Shown here piece after piece: positions 28,691 through 41,435 of a stretch of 46,221 nt of DNA. The DNA comes from Caryophanales bacterium (GTDB lineage Bacteria > Bacillota_I > Bacilli_A > RF39 > UBA660): positions 1-46,221 of the forward strand of contig JAEEVN010000006.1 in NCBI GenBank assembly GCA_016290885.1, in the 5' to 3' direction. Position numbers and translations under genes: made by a program. The notes under the pieces were generated by a model. The model was not told the DNA's origin. It worked only from the letters and a program-made list of their open reading frames with translations, and searched no databases. Within the stretch, counting starts at the first letter, position 1. The number at the start of each line of letters is the position of its first letter.

Positions 28691-28702
28691 TTATGTTTTT
28701 TT
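28667..28702. terminator. Shared terminator of tmcAL and dinD
   Basis: A 14-bp stem AAAAACATAATCAT (28667-28680) with ATGATTATGTTTTT (28687-28700), A and T-rich on both sides, so bidirectional. It contains the stop codons of both convergent genes (28688-28690 and 28691-28693), which touch end to end. Confidence 0.9.
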
Positions 28703-29500
28703 ATTATCAATCTCTTTAATAGAAGATTTTGGTTTAGGTAATTCTTCAGGCATAGTACCACCTAATTCTTTTATAGTATCCCTTACTTTTTTACCTATCT
28801 TATAGTGAGTAATATTTGCTTCATATTCATTATCAACATTATCTCTTTTTAATTTACTATCCGTCTGAGTTATTCTAAATAAATTAGCTGCTAACTCTTC
28901 ACTACCCATATTGTCTAAAATATCCTGTCTATATTTAAGCCCTTTTCTTTTAAATATATCATCTGCTGTCTCGCCATTATAAAGTCCTTTATACCCAGCG
29001 TTATGGAATTCAGCAAGATTCTTTACTCCTGACTTAACTGCAGTCCTATTAAGGCCATAATTACCCTCTTTTACTTGTTTTCTTATCTTTAGTCTTCTTT
29101 CATCCTCAGATAGAAACTTATATTCCTCATCAAGTAATTCTTGTCTTCTTGTTTGTACTGCAAAATAAGTTTGAGCAAGCGCAATCACATTCTTCCTCGA
29201 ATCGCCATTCATAGAAATTAAATAACATGCATAGCGAGTTAATCTGTAATCCTCTATAATTCTTTTACCACCATTTACATTTATTGACAATTTACCGGCG
29301 CCGGTAAATTGTTCTGAGGTATTATATCCACTAGCAGTACAAGCTAATTTTGCCTTTGATATTACCTCTTTAAATTTTTGCCATTTTACGTATTCTAAAG
29401 CTGACATAAGTTCTCTTGCGTGCCAATATTCATTGCCTTCTTCATCAATGTGTTTAATCTTTTCAAATACTTCTTCAGTATAATTTGTAATGTTCTTCAT
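28691..29500 (-). CDS. dinD: DNA-damage-inducible protein D (DinD) homologue
   Basis: A 269-residue DinD-family protein. Family landmarks: GNEYWHARELMSALEYVKW, then the core DYRLTRYACYLISMNGDSRK, AQTYFAVQTRRQEL, and later NLAEFHNAGYKGLYNGETA. The E. coli protein is an SOS gene product that inhibits RecA in vitro; homologues also travel with mobile elements. GGAGG precedes the ATG. I see no LexA-type box in 29501-29557, so SOS control is not shown. Base use is a little richer in G and C than the neighbours, and one stretch forms a perfect 26-bp palindrome; both fit acquisition by transfer. Confidence 0.92.
   Translation of the reverse strand: MKNITNYTEEVFEKIKHIDEEGNEYWHARELMSALEYVKWQKFKEVISKAKLACTASGYNTSEQFTGAGKLSINVNGGKRIIEDYRLTRYACYLISMNGDSRKNVIALAQTYFAVQTRRQELLDEEYKFLSEDERRLKIRKQVKEGNYGLNRTAVKSGVKNLAEFHNAGYKGLYNGETADDIFKRKGLKYRQDILDNMGSEELAANLFRITQTDSKLKRDNVDNEYEANITHYKIGKKVRDTIKELGGTMPEELPKPKSSIKEIDNKKT
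29287..29312. repeat. 26-bp perfect palindrome inside dinD
   Basis: Thirteen bases at 29287-29299 are exactly self-complementary to 29300-29312, with the core CCGGCGCCGG, flanked by AATTTA and TAAATT arms. It lies in the codons for QFTGAGKL and is the most GC-rich short stretch seen nearby. It could fold into a strong RNA hairpin or be a protein-binding site. Confidence 0.95.
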
Positions 29501-30627: not shown

Positions 30628-31077
30628 TTATTCCCTCTCTTTTGAATCAATAATTATAGTTACTGGTCCATCATTTATTAATGATACTTTCATATCTGCT
30701 CCAAACTCACCTGTTACATAAGATATACCTGTCTTACTTAATTCTTCCTTAAATAATTCATATAATTTATTAGAATCATCATAATTTAATGCATTTGTAA
30801 ATGATGGTCTATTACCATCTTTACAAGATGCATATAAAGTAAATTGAGAAACAAGTAATATACCTCCACCAGATATTTCACTTACATTATAATTCATTTT
30901 ACCATTAGAATCTTCAAATATTCTTAAATTAACTATCTTTTTTACTAAATATTTTACATCTTCAATAGTATCTCCATTAGTCATACCAAGAAGTACTACT
31001 AATCCTTTATCAATACTATTAGTAGTATTATCAAAACTAACTGATGCTTCTTTGCATCTTTGAATAACTACTCTCAT
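30628..31077 (-). CDS. dtd: D-aminoacyl-tRNA deacylase
   Basis: A 149-residue DTD that recycles D-aminoacyl-tRNAs. It starts MRVVIQRCKEASVSFDN and has the two family motifs SQFTLYA and NDGPVTI (the Gly-cis-Pro element) that form the chiral-proofreading pocket across the dimer. Its ATG overlaps the TGA stop of rel (ATGA). The rel-dtd pairing is common in Firmicutes. Confidence 0.98.
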   Translation of the reverse strand: MRVVIQRCKEASVSFDNTTNSIDKGLVVLLGMTNGDTIEDVKYLVKKIVNLRIFEDSNGKMNYNVSEISGGGILLVSQFTLYASCKDGNRPSFTNALNYDDSNKLYELFKEELSKTGISYVTGEFGADMKVSLINDGPVTIIIDSKERE

Positions 31078-33218
31078 TTGAACACTCTTTCTACTTTTAT
31101 GATTTCACTATTAAATTTAAGATCATTCATATATTTCTTTAATTTTTCACTATCTGTAACTTCAATAGTTAATTCATAAATATTATTAGTTTGTGTACTA
31201 ATAGTATTAGCATTTAATATACCAATATTATTACTTGATGTAATAGTAATAATATCTAATAATAAATTTTCTTTTTTACTAGCAGTTATCTCTATTACAG
31301 TAATAAATTTCTTAACAATATTCTTATTCCATTTAACATCTACTAATCTTTCATCTAATTTCTCTAAATTATGACAATCCTTAGTATGAATAATAATACC
31401 ATTACCACGAGATATATACCCTACTATATCATCTCCAAGTATTGGATTACAACATCTAGCAAGTGTTACTTTTATTTCATCTATACCATCTACTAATACA
31501 TCATTTTTTAAATCAATAACATTATCTTTATTCTTAATTACTTTTTCAAGTAATTGTTCTTTAGTTATTTTATCTTCTTTAAATGCTAATGCAACACAAG
31601 ATATAGGACTATATTTACCAGTACCTATTCCTATATACATTTCATTTTCATCAGCTACTTTTAATTCTTTTAAGATATTAGGTATTCTTTCTTCTACTTC
31701 TTCAATAACTAATTTCTTTCTTCTTATTTCTTTTAAGAATAAGTCTTTACCTTTAGCTAAACTTATTTCTTTATCTACTTTAGAGAAATATGCTTTAATC
31801 TTATTTCTAGCTCCTGATGTTTTAGCATAATCAAGCCATTCCATAGATGGTGTTGCATCTTTCTTAGTATTAATCTTAACTATGTCACCATCTTTAAGTG
31901 GTGTTGATAAAGGTACCATAGTATCATTTACTACTACTCCCACCATTGTCTCACCAATCTTAGTATGTACTTTATATGCAAAATCTACACCAGTTGATCC
32001 TTTTGGAAGTTCAAATACATCTCCTTTTGGAGTATATACATAAATACTATCACCAAGTACTTCATCTTTAACACTATTAACAAAATCTTCAGCTTCAGGA
32101 TTACTTTCATTAAGCTCCATAATATTTCTAAATATTTGAAGTTTTTGTTCCATTGAACTTTGTAATTTCTTACCTTTTTCTTTATAAGACCAATGAGACG
32201 CTATACCTCTTTCTGCTACTTCATCCATTTCATGAGTTCTTATTTGAACTTCATATAATTTATTATCATAGCCAAATACAGTAGTATGTAATGATTGATA
32301 CATATTAGTCTTAGGATTAGCTATATAATCCTTAAATCTATTAGCTTTAGGCTTATATTTAGAATGAATAATACCTAATACTTGATAACATTCATTAACA
32401 GTATCTACGATTATTCTAAGACCATATATATCATATATATCACTGAATTTTCTACCTTTTTGTAATTTATTATATATACTATAAATTGACTTAACTCTTC
32501 CCTTTATTTCAAACTTAATACCATTTTCAATTAAAAGTTCAGAGATTCTATTAGTCATTTCTTTTATACAAGCTTCTCTTTCTTCAGGAGTATTATTAAG
32601 TAATTCCTCAACACTAACAAATGCATTAGGTTTATAGTATTTTAAAGAATTAACTTCTAGTTCACTCTTAATATTAGAAAGACCTAATCTATGTGCAATA
32701 GGAACAAGAATTTCAAGAGTTTCTTTAGATTTACTCTTTCTACTTTCTTCTTTAATTGCCCATAAAGTTCTCATATTTTGGCATCTTTCAGCAAGCTTAA
32801 TAATTATTATTCTTACATCTTCAGTAAGACCTACAATTATCTTTTTATAATAATTTATTTGTGTTTCACTATCAGTAAATACATTTAAATTATTAATCTT
32901 AGTAATACCTGCTACTAGATCAGTAATATCTTTACCAAAATTCTTTTTAATATCATTAATATCTGCTTTTCCTATATGAACAGTATCATGAAGTAAAGCA
33001 GCACTAATAGTATCACTATCTGCTTGTAAATCAGTAAGAATATATGCAGTATTAAGTGGATGATGCATATATTCTTCCCCACTTTTTCTTACATCATTCT
33101 TATGAACTTTACTAGCATAGTCATATGCTTTCTTAATTGTTTCTAGTTCTTCCTTACTCTCAATATATTTACTGCATACTGACAGTAATTCCTCAATAGT
33201 ATTTATTTCATTAACCAT
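31074..33218 (-). CDS. rel: Rel/Spo-type (p)ppGpp synthetase with altered hydrolase site
   Basis: A 714-residue long RSH protein. Layout: HD hydrolase domain (about 1-195), synthetase domain (about 230-360) with RFKDYIANPKTNMYQSLHTT and YEVQIRTHEMDEVAERG intact, TGS domain starting near DSIYVYTPKGDVFELP, a zinc-type segment ARCCNPILGDDIVGYISRG, and a C-terminal ACT domain. The numbering aligns with the streptococcal Rel structure: H53, H77, D78 and N148 are kept, but E81 and D82 are H81 and I82 (HDTVHIG), and D144 is E144 (KLAERCQNM). Synthesis should work; ppGpp hydrolysis is doubtful. It follows secDF by 27 nt. Confidence 0.96.
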   Translation of the reverse strand: MVNEINTIEELLSVCSKYIESKEELETIKKAYDYASKVHKNDVRKSGEEYMHHPLNTAYILTDLQADSDTISAALLHDTVHIGKADINDIKKNFGKDITDLVAGITKINNLNVFTDSETQINYYKKIIVGLTEDVRIIIIKLAERCQNMRTLWAIKEESRKSKSKETLEILVPIAHRLGLSNIKSELEVNSLKYYKPNAFVSVEELLNNTPEEREACIKEMTNRISELLIENGIKFEIKGRVKSIYSIYNKLQKGRKFSDIYDIYGLRIIVDTVNECYQVLGIIHSKYKPKANRFKDYIANPKTNMYQSLHTTVFGYDNKLYEVQIRTHEMDEVAERGIASHWSYKEKGKKLQSSMEQKLQIFRNIMELNESNPEAEDFVNSVKDEVLGDSIYVYTPKGDVFELPKGSTGVDFAYKVHTKIGETMVGVVVNDTMVPLSTPLKDGDIVKINTKKDATPSMEWLDYAKTSGARNKIKAYFSKVDKEISLAKGKDLFLKEIRRKKLVIEEVEERIPNILKELKVADENEMYIGIGTGKYSPISCVALAFKEDKITKEQLLEKVIKNKDNVIDLKNDVLVDGIDEIKVTLARCCNPILGDDIVGYISRGNGIIIHTKDCHNLEKLDERLVDVKWNKNIVKKFITVIEITASKKENLLLDIITITSSNNIGILNANTISTQTNNIYELTIEVTDSEKLKKYMNDLKFNSEIIKVERVFK

Positions 33219-33245: not shown

Positions 33246-35948
33246 TTAAGCATTTATTCCTTTAACACTTAATTCTTCTACCTTTCTTTTCTTAGGTTTA
33301 TCCTTCTTTTTATTTTTAGTTTTTTTACTTTGTAATCTATATTCTAATATAACCCATAAAGAACCTGATATTAATATAGAAGAATATGCTCCTGCTATAA
33401 GACCTATTAATATAGCTATATCAAACTCTAATATTTCTTTTGATCCAAATATAATTAAACATATAATTGGAAGCATAGTAGTAATAGTAGTATTAATAGA
33501 ACGAAGCATTGTTTCTTTAATAGACTTATTAGCTATTTCTTTTAATTCATCTTTAGTAAGAACACTATTAATCTTCTTATTCTTATTTTCTCTAATTCTA
33601 TCAAATATAACAATAGTATTGTTAATAGAATAACCAATAATAGTAAGTATAGCTGCTATAAAGATAGAATTAATCTCTAAATGCATTATTGCAAATAATA
33701 CAACTATCATAATACTATCATGTATTAATGCTATTATTGAACTTAATGCATAACTAAACTTATATCTAATAGTTATATAAAGAATAATTCCAATAATTGC
33801 ATATACTAATGCAATTATTGCATTCTTAATTAAATCTTTCTTAACTAAATTACTAACTACAGATATATCAGTCTTAGCATCATATTTTTGACAAATAACA
33901 CCATTAACATTCTTTATTTCTTCTTTTTCAAGTATTTCAGATACTTTAACATAATAAGCATCATTATCTTTTTCTGATGAAATAATAGTTAATCCTAAAT
34001 CTTTAATATCTTTATTAATAGATTTAACACTAGCATTCTTAGCATTACTAATAGTAATATCAGTACCACCAGTAAAATCTATACCAAAATTAAATCCTTT
34101 ATTAACAAATATAAATACACCTGCAACTACTAATAAAACTATAGGTAATATTATAAACTTCTTAAAATTACCAACATAATCCTTATGAATTCTAGATTCA
34201 AATTTACTTTCTACATCTTCTAAACTATTCTTTATTTCACTTCTCTTTTGATTAATAAACATTCTAATTTTATTATCAAAGAATTTAGTTTTAATAAATG
34301 AATATGTAATTAATCTAGTAATTAATACTACTATTAACATAGTCATAATTATGTTAATTATTAACATTGTAGCAAATCCTTTAACAGAACTTTCTCCAAA
34401 TATAAATAATATTATTGCTATTATAAATGTAGTAACATTTGAATCTAAGATTGAACTAAATGAATTTTTTATACCATTTCTATAAGCAGTTTTTAAATCT
34501 CTACCTTTTCTAAGTTCTTCTTTAATTCTCTCACTAGTAATAACATTAGCATCTACTGCCATACCTACACCAAGAACTAATGCTGCTATACCAGGTAAAG
34601 TTAATACTCCATCTATTAAATAGAATACTAAGAATGTCATAAATGTATAGATTAAGATAACTGAAGATGCTATAAATCCTGAGAATCTATATCTTAAAGT
34701 CATAAATAATATAATTAATACTATACCTATTATTCCAGCAAGTTCTGTCTTTAATAATGAATTTGCACCAAATGCAGATCCTACAGTTTGACTAGATATT
34801 TCTTTAAACTTAACATTATTAGAACCACTATTAATTAAATCTACTAAATTAGCAACTTGTTCTTCAGTAAAATTACCTTGAATAATAACATTACTACTAA
34901 ATCCTTGTGAAACAGTAGCAGCACTTAAACACTTAGCATCATTTAAATCTGTAAATGATCCACACTTAGCAGTACTATAACTATCTTTTCCATCTACATA
35001 ATCAAGCCAAATAACAATTAACTTATCATCTGATTGACTAATTTGTGATGTAACATTATAGAATAAATCTTTATCTTTAATATTTAATAATACAGCAGGT
35101 CTTCCCTTATCATCTGTACTAACCTTAGCAGCAGTACCAGCAGATAATACACTCTTGTCCATTAGTTTATTATCTTTACTATCTCTAAATGTTAATTCTC
35201 CAGCAATAGTAATATAATCTCTTGCAGCTTCAGCATCTTTAACACCTGCAAGCTTAACTCTTATTTTATCTTTACCTTCAATAGTAAGTTCTGGTTCAGT
35301 AACACCTAACTTATCTATTCTTCTAAGCATTGTTCTATATGTATCATTAACATCTGCACTAGTTAACTTTTGCCCTTTTTCAGAAGGACTAATTTGATAT
35401 AAAATTTCAAATCCTCCAGCTAAATCTAATCCTTTAGTGATGTTATCAAAAACATTAGGAATTAGTACGGTAGCACTTGCTACAATTCCCAAAACTGAAA
35501 CAAATAAATAACTAAATTTAACCTTAGCACTATTAAATTCAACATTACTATTATATTTACCTTTAATAGCAAGTATTATATGAGATATTATTGGTAATAC
35601 ATTAAGTAATATATACCATAAAATACCCTTATCAAATTTTTTAGCAAGTCTTACATTTAATCTAATATAATAAAGTATAAATAATAATGCACTAAATGCA
35701 AATATTATAATAGTATTCATACTCTTTAATTTTAATAAATAAATTAATAAACATACTCCTATACTAAATATATACTCAAAAATGTGATACCATTTAAGAT
35801 CTACCATCTTTAATAAGTAAATAAAATTTACTATTGGTATCCACGCTAGAAATCTTTTTACCTCTCCCTTTTTAAATAACATAAACATAGTAAAACTAGA
35901 AAGTAAATAACTAGCTGCTATGCAAATTAAAACTATTATGCTGTTCAT
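33246..35948 (-). CDS. secDF: SecD-SecF fusion with an extra N-terminal membrane domain
   Basis: A 900-residue protein-export auxiliary that uses the proton gradient to pull substrates after SecA. SecD part: first helix at about 146-166, GLDLAGGFE at 173-180, periplasmic-type P1 domain, and GMAVDANV near 462-469. SecF part: FGIDFTGGT at 621-629 and the second six-helix bundle. Before the SecD part is an extension of about 142 residues with roughly five helices; its LAWIPIVNFIYLLKMV and RLAKKFDKGILWYILLNVLP resemble the DUF5684 membrane domain. AGAGGAT supports the upstream start. It heads the secDF-rel-dtd-AI-2E operon. Confidence 0.95.
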   Translation of the reverse strand: MNSIIVLICIAASYLLSSFTMFMLFKKGEVKRFLAWIPIVNFIYLLKMVDLKWYHIFEYIFSIGVCLLIYLLKLKSMNTIIIFAFSALLFILYYIRLNVRLAKKFDKGILWYILLNVLPIISHIILAIKGKYNSNVEFNSAKVKFSYLFVSVLGIVASATVLIPNVFDNITKGLDLAGGFEILYQISPSEKGQKLTSADVNDTYRTMLRRIDKLGVTEPELTIEGKDKIRVKLAGVKDAEAARDYITIAGELTFRDSKDNKLMDKSVLSAGTAAKVSTDDKGRPAVLLNIKDKDLFYNVTSQISQSDDKLIVIWLDYVDGKDSYSTAKCGSFTDLNDAKCLSAATVSQGFSSNVIIQGNFTEEQVANLVDLINSGSNNVKFKEISSQTVGSAFGANSLLKTELAGIIGIVLIILFMTLRYRFSGFIASSVILIYTFMTFLVFYLIDGVLTLPGIAALVLGVGMAVDANVITSERIKEELRKGRDLKTAYRNGIKNSFSSILDSNVTTFIIAIILFIFGESSVKGFATMLIINIIMTMLIVVLITRLITYSFIKTKFFDNKIRMFINQKRSEIKNSLEDVESKFESRIHKDYVGNFKKFIILPIVLLVVAGVFIFVNKGFNFGIDFTGGTDITISNAKNASVKSINKDIKDLGLTIISSEKDNDAYYVKVSEILEKEEIKNVNGVICQKYDAKTDISVVSNLVKKDLIKNAIIALVYAIIGIILYITIRYKFSYALSSIIALIHDSIMIVVLFAIMHLEINSIFIAAILTIIGYSINNTIVIFDRIRENKNKKINSVLTKDELKEIANKSIKETMLRSINTTITTMLPIICLIIFGSKEILEFDIAILIGLIAGAYSSILISGSLWVILEYRLQSKKTKNKKKDKPKKRKVEELSVKGINA

Positions 35949-35975
35949 ATATATCCTCTTTTCCTTACATATTTA

Positions 35976-38380: not shown

Positions 38381-39985
38381 TTATAAACTATCAATTAGGC
38401 TAACTATTCTATTCCTTCCTTTTTTTAAATCATGTTGCAACATTTTATTTTGAAGTTCTTTCCTATTATTCATTGAGAGACTTAAATACTCTTTTAACGT
38501 GTTTTCAATTAATTCATCATCAGGATTTAATCCTATATAAAAAAATCCATTTTCATTACATACAAAAGAATGTCTTTCTTCTCTCTCGTTTTGAGACATT
38601 GCAATAGTAGGAATACCCATGAGAGCTAGTTCATAACCTGTTCTTCCCCTAGAAGTTACAGCTATGTCATTTTCAGAAATCAATTCTGGCATATTTTTAA
38701 TATTATACAATACTTGAATGTTTTTATACTTATTGTATTCCATTAGTTCTTCAACATTTCTTTTTGCCTTACCTAAAACTATTGTAAAATTATATTTTTT
38801 ATATTCATCTTTTGATACTATTTTCAATAATCTATCGGTATAATTTTGCGGATCTGCTCCACCAAAAGTGATAAGAACATTCTCAACATTATCTTTGATA
38901 TCTATTGGATTAAAGAACAAGAAAGTCTTAGGACAAACATAATATAATTCACCACAATATGTGTTAGACTGAGTGCTGTTTGAATATAAAGCATTAAATA
39001 CTAAATCAGCTAATAAAGACCCTTCTCCATCGTCTTCAAAATTTATAATTTTAGCATTTTTCCCTAAACTACTTTTTAAACCACTCATGTAATATGTAGT
39101 TGTTGACAGAATATCATTTATAAAAATAGTATAATTATTTTCCTTACATTTTTCATATAATTCTAATTCATTTCGTACTGGAAATAAATTATATGTAGTA
39201 TCCCCAAATACTACCGGATCTGTTTTATCATAATTATAATATATATCAGGTTTTGAATAAAATTCATCAGCTAATTCAAGAACTCTATATATATGTCCTA
39301 AACCTATTTCATTATTACCATTAACATAAAATGCTACTTTCTGTTTTTTTAATGATAGTTCTGCGCTTAATAGATCTGAGAAATCATCAATATCTTGTGA
39401 TTCTTCTTCTGGAATTTCATATATATCCACTTTGTTCCCAATTCTTGAAGATGGAGATACAGCAGCATATTTTGATATAACAAAAGCTCCTGTTTCAATA
39501 TAATATGCAGGCAAATATTGTCTATTTAATCTTTCTTTATAATTTGGCACTTTTTTTCCCCCTACTTCACTCCATGATAAATGTGGTTTATTAATGGCAG
39601 AAATTAGTGTATCTAATTCATTATCAATAGCATATTTAATTGCAGAATCAAGAGTCTCAACTGTTAATGTAGGTGAAGTTGGTTGCATAGTAACAATATA
39701 ATCCCATTTTTGATCTTTAGGAATTGCATCAAATATAACAGAGTCTAAAGTAATATTATCTGCGCATAATTCTTTGCTCCTATCTTTATAATTAACTCTC
39801 ATTTTTTTTGCAATTAATTTAACTTCTTCTGAATCAGTAGTAACAACTATATCAGTAATATATCTTGAATTTAAAGCATTATTAATTGAATAGTATATTA
39901 AGGGGTGCTCCCCAATAATTCTTATATTTTTATTTGGAATACCTTTTGATCCTGCTCTAGCAGGAATAACGGCTAAAATTCTCAT
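38381..39985 (-). CDS. CMP-nonulosonate synthetase fused to a PseG-like glycosyl hydrolase domain
   Basis: A 534-residue fusion. Residues 1-210: cytidylyltransferase like NeuA/LegF, with VIPARAGSKGIPNKN at 6-20, MQPTSPT near 100 and DIDDFSDL near 198-205. Residues 215-534: a GT-B domain like PseG, which removes UDP from a UDP-linked hexosamine in pseudaminate synthesis; the Gly-rich loop with its catalytic His is IGLGHIYR (H231), and the end has SRGRTGYELALMGIPT. The start is taken at MRILAVIP, one base after the wzx stop; GTG and ATG codons just upstream are alternatives. Together with NeuB this points to a nonulosonate pathway with UDP-sugar hydrolysis built in. Confidence 0.9.
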   Translation of the reverse strand: MRILAVIPARAGSKGIPNKNIRIIGEHPLIYYSINNALNSRYITDIVVTTDSEEVKLIAKKMRVNYKDRSKELCADNITLDSVIFDAIPKDQKWDYIVTMQPTSPTLTVETLDSAIKYAIDNELDTLISAINKPHLSWSEVGGKKVPNYKERLNRQYLPAYYIETGAFVISKYAAVSPSSRIGNKVDIYEIPEEESQDIDDFSDLLSAELSLKKQKVAFYVNGNNEIGLGHIYRVLELADEFYSKPDIYYNYDKTDPVVFGDTTYNLFPVRNELELYEKCKENNYTIFINDILSTTTYYMSGLKSSLGKNAKIINFEDDGEGSLLADLVFNALYSNSTQSNTYCGELYYVCPKTFLFFNPIDIKDNVENVLITFGGADPQNYTDRLLKIVSKDEYKKYNFTIVLGKAKRNVEELMEYNKYKNIQVLYNIKNMPELISENDIAVTSRGRTGYELALMGIPTIAMSQNEREERHSFVCNENGFFYIGLNPDDELIENTLKEYLSLSMNNRKELQNKMLQHDLKKGRNRIVSLIDSL

Positions 39986-39986
39986 A

Positions 39987-41435
39987 TTATTCATCACCTC
40001 TTCTACTGAATATTTTCATAAATTCTTCCAATGATCTATTTTTTAATGCAGAAAATATTTTTTTTCTATTAATTATTATAACACTAAACATTCCAATAGA
40101 TATTATAATAATTAAAATATATCTTGCAATATTATATAAATATAAATAATTACATAAAAACATAAATAATAGAGAAATACTAATAATTATTAAGAAAAAT
40201 AATGTATCATACCAACTAGTACATTTTAATCTCTTAACAAAAATAAAATGTATAATAAATAAACAAGCATAACCAATTAAAGTCGTATATGCTGCTGATA
40301 TATAGCCATATTTTGGAATGAATAAATAATTAAGTGCAATATTTATAATTGTTGCAATAACAGTTCCAACAGCAATATTTTTTTGTTTTTTATGATAGAA
40401 TTCAATGTTAACATACAGTGAATAAATAAATTGAAAAACATAACCAACCATAACTGGTGGAAATATATACATTGCTTCAGTATAAGATTTACCTGCCATA
40501 ATATATAAAACTTCAGGAGTTATTAGCATTACTAAAAATACAACTACTACATAAAAAATAGTATATGGTTTAGAATACTTCTTTAAATTGCCATATTGTT
40601 TTTTATCCATTTGGTCATATGCCCATGGAGACCAAGCATTGTTTAATGACAACCATAGCAAAGATACAATTGATGCAATCGTATAAGGAACACTATAAAG
40701 AGCATTAGCATTTTCAGATATCATTTTAGTAATCATAATTTTATCTGCAGAGTTTAATAAATAACCTGCTAATAAATGCCAAATTAATGGAAAAGAAATA
40801 GCCAATGAATATTTCCAATATTTACTTGAAATTGTTTTTCCTTTCTTAAGTAAATAAAAATATATAACTATTGAGGAAAAAATCAGTGGAATAAAATAAC
40901 CATATACTCTACCCATAAGTGCATTCTTCAAAGAAAGAACTAATAATATAGAAATAATTGTAGATAATAAAGCATTTATTACCGAAACAAAAACTATCTT
41001 CTTATAATCGTAGTCTATCTGGCTTTTAATTTGAAACATTTGAAATGCGGGATAAAAGAATAAATACAGGAAAATAATATGTAATGTTTCTTCATTCATA
41101 ACAAAAAGGTCTAAGAAGAAATCTTTAAATATTAGAATTATTATATAAAAAAATAGAGTAACTATATTCCCTAAAACAAGATTTGAAGAAATATATTTAT
41201 CTAGTTCTTCCTTGTAATCAAATCTTGCAAGATTAACAGATGAATACAATTCAAAAGTTACTACAATTGCAAAAATATTAAACCAAGATGTAATATTAGA
41301 AAATAAACCAATATCTCCTTTAGTCATTATTCTTGTAAAAATAGGCATTGTAATAAATGTTAATGCTTTAATTAAAAAATTAGAAATTGTATACCATATA
41401 CCTGCTTTTAATGCACTTTTTTTACCTTGCTTCAT
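39987..41435 (-). CDS. wzx: Polysaccharide repeat-unit flippase (Wzx type)
   Basis: A 482-residue membrane protein with about 12-14 hydrophobic helices of the MATE/MOP flippase superfamily, which moves lipid-linked repeat units across the membrane. It starts KAGIWYTISNFLIKALTFIT and has TMPIFTRIMTKGDIGLFS, typical of the family, plus a paired second half. The C-terminal tail is cytoplasmic and basic. It follows the GT52 gene by 3 nt. Confidence 0.92.
   Translation of the reverse strand: MKQGKKSALKAGIWYTISNFLIKALTFITMPIFTRIMTKGDIGLFSNITSWFNIFAIVVTFELYSSVNLARFDYKEELDKYISSNLVLGNIVTLFFYIIILIFKDFFLDLFVMNEETLHIIFLYLFFYPAFQMFQIKSQIDYDYKKIVFVSVINALLSTIISILLVLSLKNALMGRVYGYFIPLIFSSIVIYFYLLKKGKTISSKYWKYSLAISFPLIWHLLAGYLLNSADKIMITKMISENANALYSVPYTIASIVSLLWLSLNNAWSPWAYDQMDKKQYGNLKKYSKPYTIFYVVVVFLVMLITPEVLYIMAGKSYTEAMYIFPPVMVGYVFQFIYSLYVNIEFYHKKQKNIAVGTVIATIINIALNYLFIPKYGYISAAYTTLIGYACLFIIHFIFVKRLKCTSWYDTLFFLIIISISLLFMFLCNYLYLYNIARYILIIIISIGMFSVIIINRKKIFSALKNRSLEEFMKIFSRRGDE

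Follow-up and report, generated by a model that had tools for sequence, protein, structure and literature searches.

Can SecDF, which is usually regarded as a fixed 12-helix machine, carry an additional N-terminal membrane domain, and what might such a domain do? This question is raised by a gene on the minus strand of the window, by which we mean the whole 46,221-nucleotide stretch analysed here. An ATG opens a 900-aa open reading frame (positions 33246-35948), in which direct reading found no internal stop. A Shine-Dalgarno-like stretch, AAGGAAAAGAGGA (35954-35966, minus strand), was read directly 5 nt before the ATG, and comparable purine-rich ribosome-binding sites are present in the fused orthologues described below. 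The continuous frame and good ribosome-binding site claimed in the first-pass annotation were thus borne out. Between residues 77 and 153 of the window frame, ATG, GTG and TTG are all absent, and a SecD with its first helix could therefore be made only from the upstream start. The same stretch lacks a start codon in several fused orthologues.

The SecDF part of the protein, comprising P1, the SecD transmembrane bundle and the SecF half, is encoded at 33246-35444 (minus strand) and was delimited with Pfam, NCBIfam and an alignment to the solved SecDF structure 5xan. Three Pfam models scored over their cut-offs: SecD_1st (residues 201-258, 55.5 bits), Sec_GG (residues 612-633, 29.5 bits) and SecD_SecF_C (residues 692-868, 214 bits). 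The NCBIfam models TIGR01129 and TIGR00966 also scored over theirs, and 5xan aligned to residues 167-870 (E 1.4e-78). Residues D466, D744 and R784 are invariant in our alignment, each with its match in solved SecDF. They belong to the conserved charged membrane residues tied to proton use (the D in AVDAN, the HD motif and FDRIRE). Compared with known SecDF (NF009581; solved structures 3aqp and 5xan), the window core shares P1, both RND-type bundles, Sec_GG and the conserved D and R residues. Known SecDF begins near the first SecD helix, whereas the window protein adds about 140 residues, predicted to form five helices, all but one of them long. These residues are an added domain with no core feature lost, and it is on this basis that we call the protein a SecDF variant. 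Enlarged SecDF models already exist in NCBIfam for particular lineages (PRK12911, 1403 aa; PRK13024.1-5, 993 aa).

The added domain corresponds to residues 1-140 (35529-35948, minus strand), delimited by predicted helices and by a profile match mediated by its orthologues, and lies outside every Pfam SecDF model. In the 752-aa SecDF model of NCBIfam, position 9 pairs with residue 147, which leaves about 138 residues extra. AlphaFold2, given 20 aligned sequences, predicted helices at residues 2-27, 38-48, 53-72, 77-104 and 109-129, with a mean pLDDT of 72.5 overall and about 71-83 per ten-residue block over residues 1-140. This agrees with the earlier description of about 142 extra residues containing around five hydrophobic segments. 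The predicted helix at residues 141-168 (35445-35528, minus strand) is the normal first SecD helix, just before which the proteins of unfused relatives begin. Taken whole, the model had solved SecDF as its best match. For the extension itself, neither Foldseek nor VIA returned a fold match in the PDB, and a PDB sequence search gave a chance-level match to ORMDL and nothing else.

The alignment of 17 fused orthologues and the AlphaFold2 model place a conserved IP(I/V)xN motif at the start of the short helix (residues 38-48; 35805-35837, minus strand), where P38 is invariant and N41 is at least 90% conserved. Several aromatic, proline and basic positions of the extension are invariant, but invariant residues are few overall among the 17 sequences. 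The same alignment separates a long form, to which the window copy belongs, from a short form. The mark of the long form is a 25-residue insertion at about residues 63-87 (35688-35762, minus strand), present in nine orthologues and missing from eight. It makes the second and third long helices longer; in this region the helices of the short-form model are interrupted (53-59 and 64-79). Since every loop of the extension is basic, the positive-inside rule leaves its possible arrangements in the membrane undecided. The N-terminal side of SecD TM1 is cytoplasmic in the established SecDF topology, and the extension must end on that side because its C-terminus runs directly into TM1.

What is this domain? 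The first-pass annotation had recognized the pattern of DUF5684, and a profile search of the extension supported this in part. The window copy alone reached only 13.4 bits against PF18936 (DUF5684; E 0.12), below the Pfam cut-off of 27.4 bits. Nevertheless, PF18936 was among the matches of all 17 orthologous extensions at E <=1, with a best E of 6.5e-17, and was the sole family matched by all of them. Searched singly, short-form extensions scored well over the cut-off (50.7 bits for L101, 47.5 for L107 and 47.0 for G006). One long form also exceeded it (G005, 28.7 bits), and several others scored below. Stand-alone DUF5684 proteins share with the fused extensions the IP(I/V)xN motif, a final proline helix and, preceding the last helix, a basic segment, as judged by eye from an alignment. 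They differ in setting: elsewhere DUF5684 stands alone or in other fusions, whereas here it is joined to SecDF, and the window copy carries the insertion and falls below the cut-off. Judged from these comparisons, the extension is a divergent DUF5684 domain, and the name rests on its orthologues because the window sequence alone stays below the Pfam cut-off. Among the papers searched, none names DUF5684.

An apparent fusion in one genome could be an artefact, in which a frameshift, a misassembly or a wrong start codon joins two genes. We searched related genomes for the same fusion, as the first-pass annotation had proposed. With each species represented by one genome, the joined frame turned up in 16 genomes besides that of the window, as well as in a record of the window's own species; the fused genomes derive from samples that include sheep, goat, cattle, deer and water buffalo. 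In the window's genus, the fusion is present in all 10 genomes with a complete gene start, the window included, leaving out G009 (a contig end inside secDF) and G002 (71% complete, secDF not found). Because orthologues from many independent assemblies and hosts carry the same fusion, frameshift and misassembly were rejected; the lack of an internal start codon in the window also argues against two genes read as one. The chance of an artefact is negligible, and the fusion is almost certainly genuine.

The fusion is also confined to one lineage. Among the matches listed for 338 family genomes from 150 genera, it is restricted to the window's genus (g1) and to genus g224. In the rest, the SecDF matches listed begin near SecD TM1, and SecDF from the other genera sampled starts just before it, in line with the usual SecDF start assumed at the outset. 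In a maximum-likelihood tree built from the SecDF core, a branch with 100/100 support separated the 17 fused proteins from 20 unfused ones, and the long (9) and short (8) forms grouped apart from each other. The fused proteins thus form one fully supported clade, with one gene-fusion origin. DUF5684-SecDF is a new, lineage-restricted SecDF architecture, carried by Bacilli of the rumen and gut that belong to two neighbouring genera, and it shows that SecDF can acquire extra N-terminal helices. Upstream matches with several stops in G028, G033 and G034 were considered as decayed fusions and rejected, since the actual gene starts lie immediately ahead of SecD TM1. The SecDF of G033 (L020) has one extra N-terminal hydrophobic helix with no evident relation to DUF5684, possibly an independent addition.

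Is the domain maintained for a function, or simply carried along? An upstream DUF5684 gene may have run into secDF, leaving helices that are a tolerated passenger or serve membrane anchoring only. In 12 species pairs, dN/dS was 0.21-0.59 for the extension and 0.10-0.27 for the SecDF core, although single estimates are rough, with many dS values near 0.8-0.9. The extension is under purifying selection, weaker than that on the core, and by this measure evolves about twice as fast. This faster evolution and the tolerance of a 25-residue insertion suggest loose constraint. Together with the small number of invariant residues and the many different partners to which DUF5684 is joined, they are what neutral accretion would predict. 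On the other hand, every genome of the fused clade with a complete gene start has kept the extension, even though orthologous extensions share only 35-49% identity with that of the window. The purifying selection and the invariant aromatic, proline and basic positions also speak against a mere passenger. We consider neutral accretion rather unlikely, yet a serious contender. As a possible source of the fusion, a separate DUF5684 gene upstream of secDF was looked for in three unfused family members and not seen; the position directly ahead of secDF is taken there by a small gene (about 93 aa).

The reading that we favour is one of function, and as a whole (single fusion, retention, and a docking or accessory role) we give it about an even chance of being right. 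A DUF5684 membrane domain was joined to the N-terminus of SecDF in a single old event, in the ancestor of the two related genera, and the joined protein has been retained ever since. Feeding into SecD TM1 from the cytoplasmic side, the domain would lie alongside the SecD bundle and serve SecDF as its own membrane accessory or docking module, a position and role that we infer. Such a module might help to hold SecDF at SecYEG/YidC or at some other partner in the membrane, and the proton-driven core of SecDF would work as usual. The fusion makes it plausible that the domain acts at the translocon or in the folding of exported proteins. Conserved fusions rank among the better clues to where a domain of unknown function works, and the stable joining directs attention to the Sec translocon, on its SecDF side.

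One candidate for the place taken by such a module is that of YajC. The holo-translocon consists of SecYEG, SecDF-YajC and YidC (PMC5141469). Like the extension, YajC (PF02699), the small SecDF partner in this complex, is a membrane element found with SecDF; elsewhere, however, it is a separate gene, and the extension has no sequence match to it (none of the N-terminus to PF02699 at E up to 10). None of the 59 family genomes searched (G000-G058), whether with or without the fusion, had a YajC match that reached the Pfam cut-off, while YajC is present in other families of the class. This absence would fit an extension that functionally replaces a missing partner. However, unfused genera of the family also lack YajC, so that its loss does not track the gain of the fusion. 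As the whole family lacks YajC, we rejected the simple story in which the fusion compensates for a specific loss, and the extension is not a one-to-one answer to it. Simple replacement is probably not the explanation, and functional replacement in general seems very unlikely, but the extension could use the YajC site. SecDF itself is patchy: 27 of 47 other family genera (G012-G058) showed no convincing SecDF, several of them at 95-98% completeness, and the window's genus retains it, so that repeated losses of SecDF may have occurred in the family.

The other settings in which DUF5684 occurs offer a further view of its function. The domain was found in 149 of the 338 sampled family genomes, where it is a common stand-alone module, as well as in other Bacilli and on plasmids of an actinobacterium and haloarchaea. 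The window's genome also encodes stand-alone DUF5684 paralogues. One of these (G000, L132:6441-6941) lies near genes for an exported CPHC protein and a DUF4097 protein on the opposite strand, and in G001, of the window's genus, DUF5684 is fused to an exported CPHC thioredoxin-like protein (L135:10054-11010). A DUF4097 membrane protein, an exported CPHC thioredoxin-like protein and DUF5684 thus recur as a cluster (L135:9190-11585 and L132:4916-6941). The thioredoxin-like call was made from the CPHC motif and weak glutaredoxin-like profile matches. This association hints at a second, weaker link of DUF5684 to exported-protein maturation.

On this evidence, the SecDF domain might instead serve to recruit partners for exported-protein maturation, by associating with stand-alone DUF5684 or with DUF5684-linked thiol-redox proteins. 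The paralogues in the same genome, the fusion in G001 and the neighbouring genes in G000 would suit such a role. The association of one DUF5684 with another is a postulate, however, and the CPHC link was seen in two genomes only, with the thioredoxin-like call drawn from weak profile matches; we regard partner recruitment as distinctly improbable. A broader proposal, which we consider unlikely, gives DUF5684 a general role in the membrane during the last stages of export or while exported proteins mature (thiol redox, release or folding). If so, the SecDF fusion would be direct evidence of where DUF5684 works, and its stand-alone versions, which many bacteria and archaea possess, would count as uncharacterised factors associated with Sec. 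Some family DUF5684 proteins have C-terminal cysteine-rich tails that look zinc-ribbon-like by eye, and other partners occur too, and DUF5684 is therefore possibly a generic membrane module. A front domain resembling DUF5684 may also be present on signal peptidase I in some Bacteroidota. The Haloarcula plasmid DUF5684 protein AUG49543.1 (130 aa) is annotated as 'signal peptidase I', but PF18936 had no match in the control genomes, a Bacteroides included, and we give this possible link no weight as evidence.

The gene order around the fusion is largely kept in its relatives. Immediately downstream and on the same strand lies a RelA/SpoT gene (31074-33218, minus strand), an order kept in fused relatives, followed by a gene for D-Tyr-tRNA deacylase (30628-31077, minus strand), which is kept in place in most of them; both were identified with Pfam. 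Beside this secDF-relA-dtd neighbourhood, positions 28691-29500 (minus strand) encode a Bro-N domain protein resembling a phage-type antirepressor. Elsewhere in the window, a 538-aa protein (38381-39997, minus strand) has an N-terminal cytidylyltransferase (CTP_transf_3), and its C-terminal half, judged by eye, looks like a sugar-nucleotide hydrolase of the PseG type. Its gene adjoins those for NeuB and UDP-galactopyranose mutase, and the region is probably a nonulosonic acid surface-sugar cluster.
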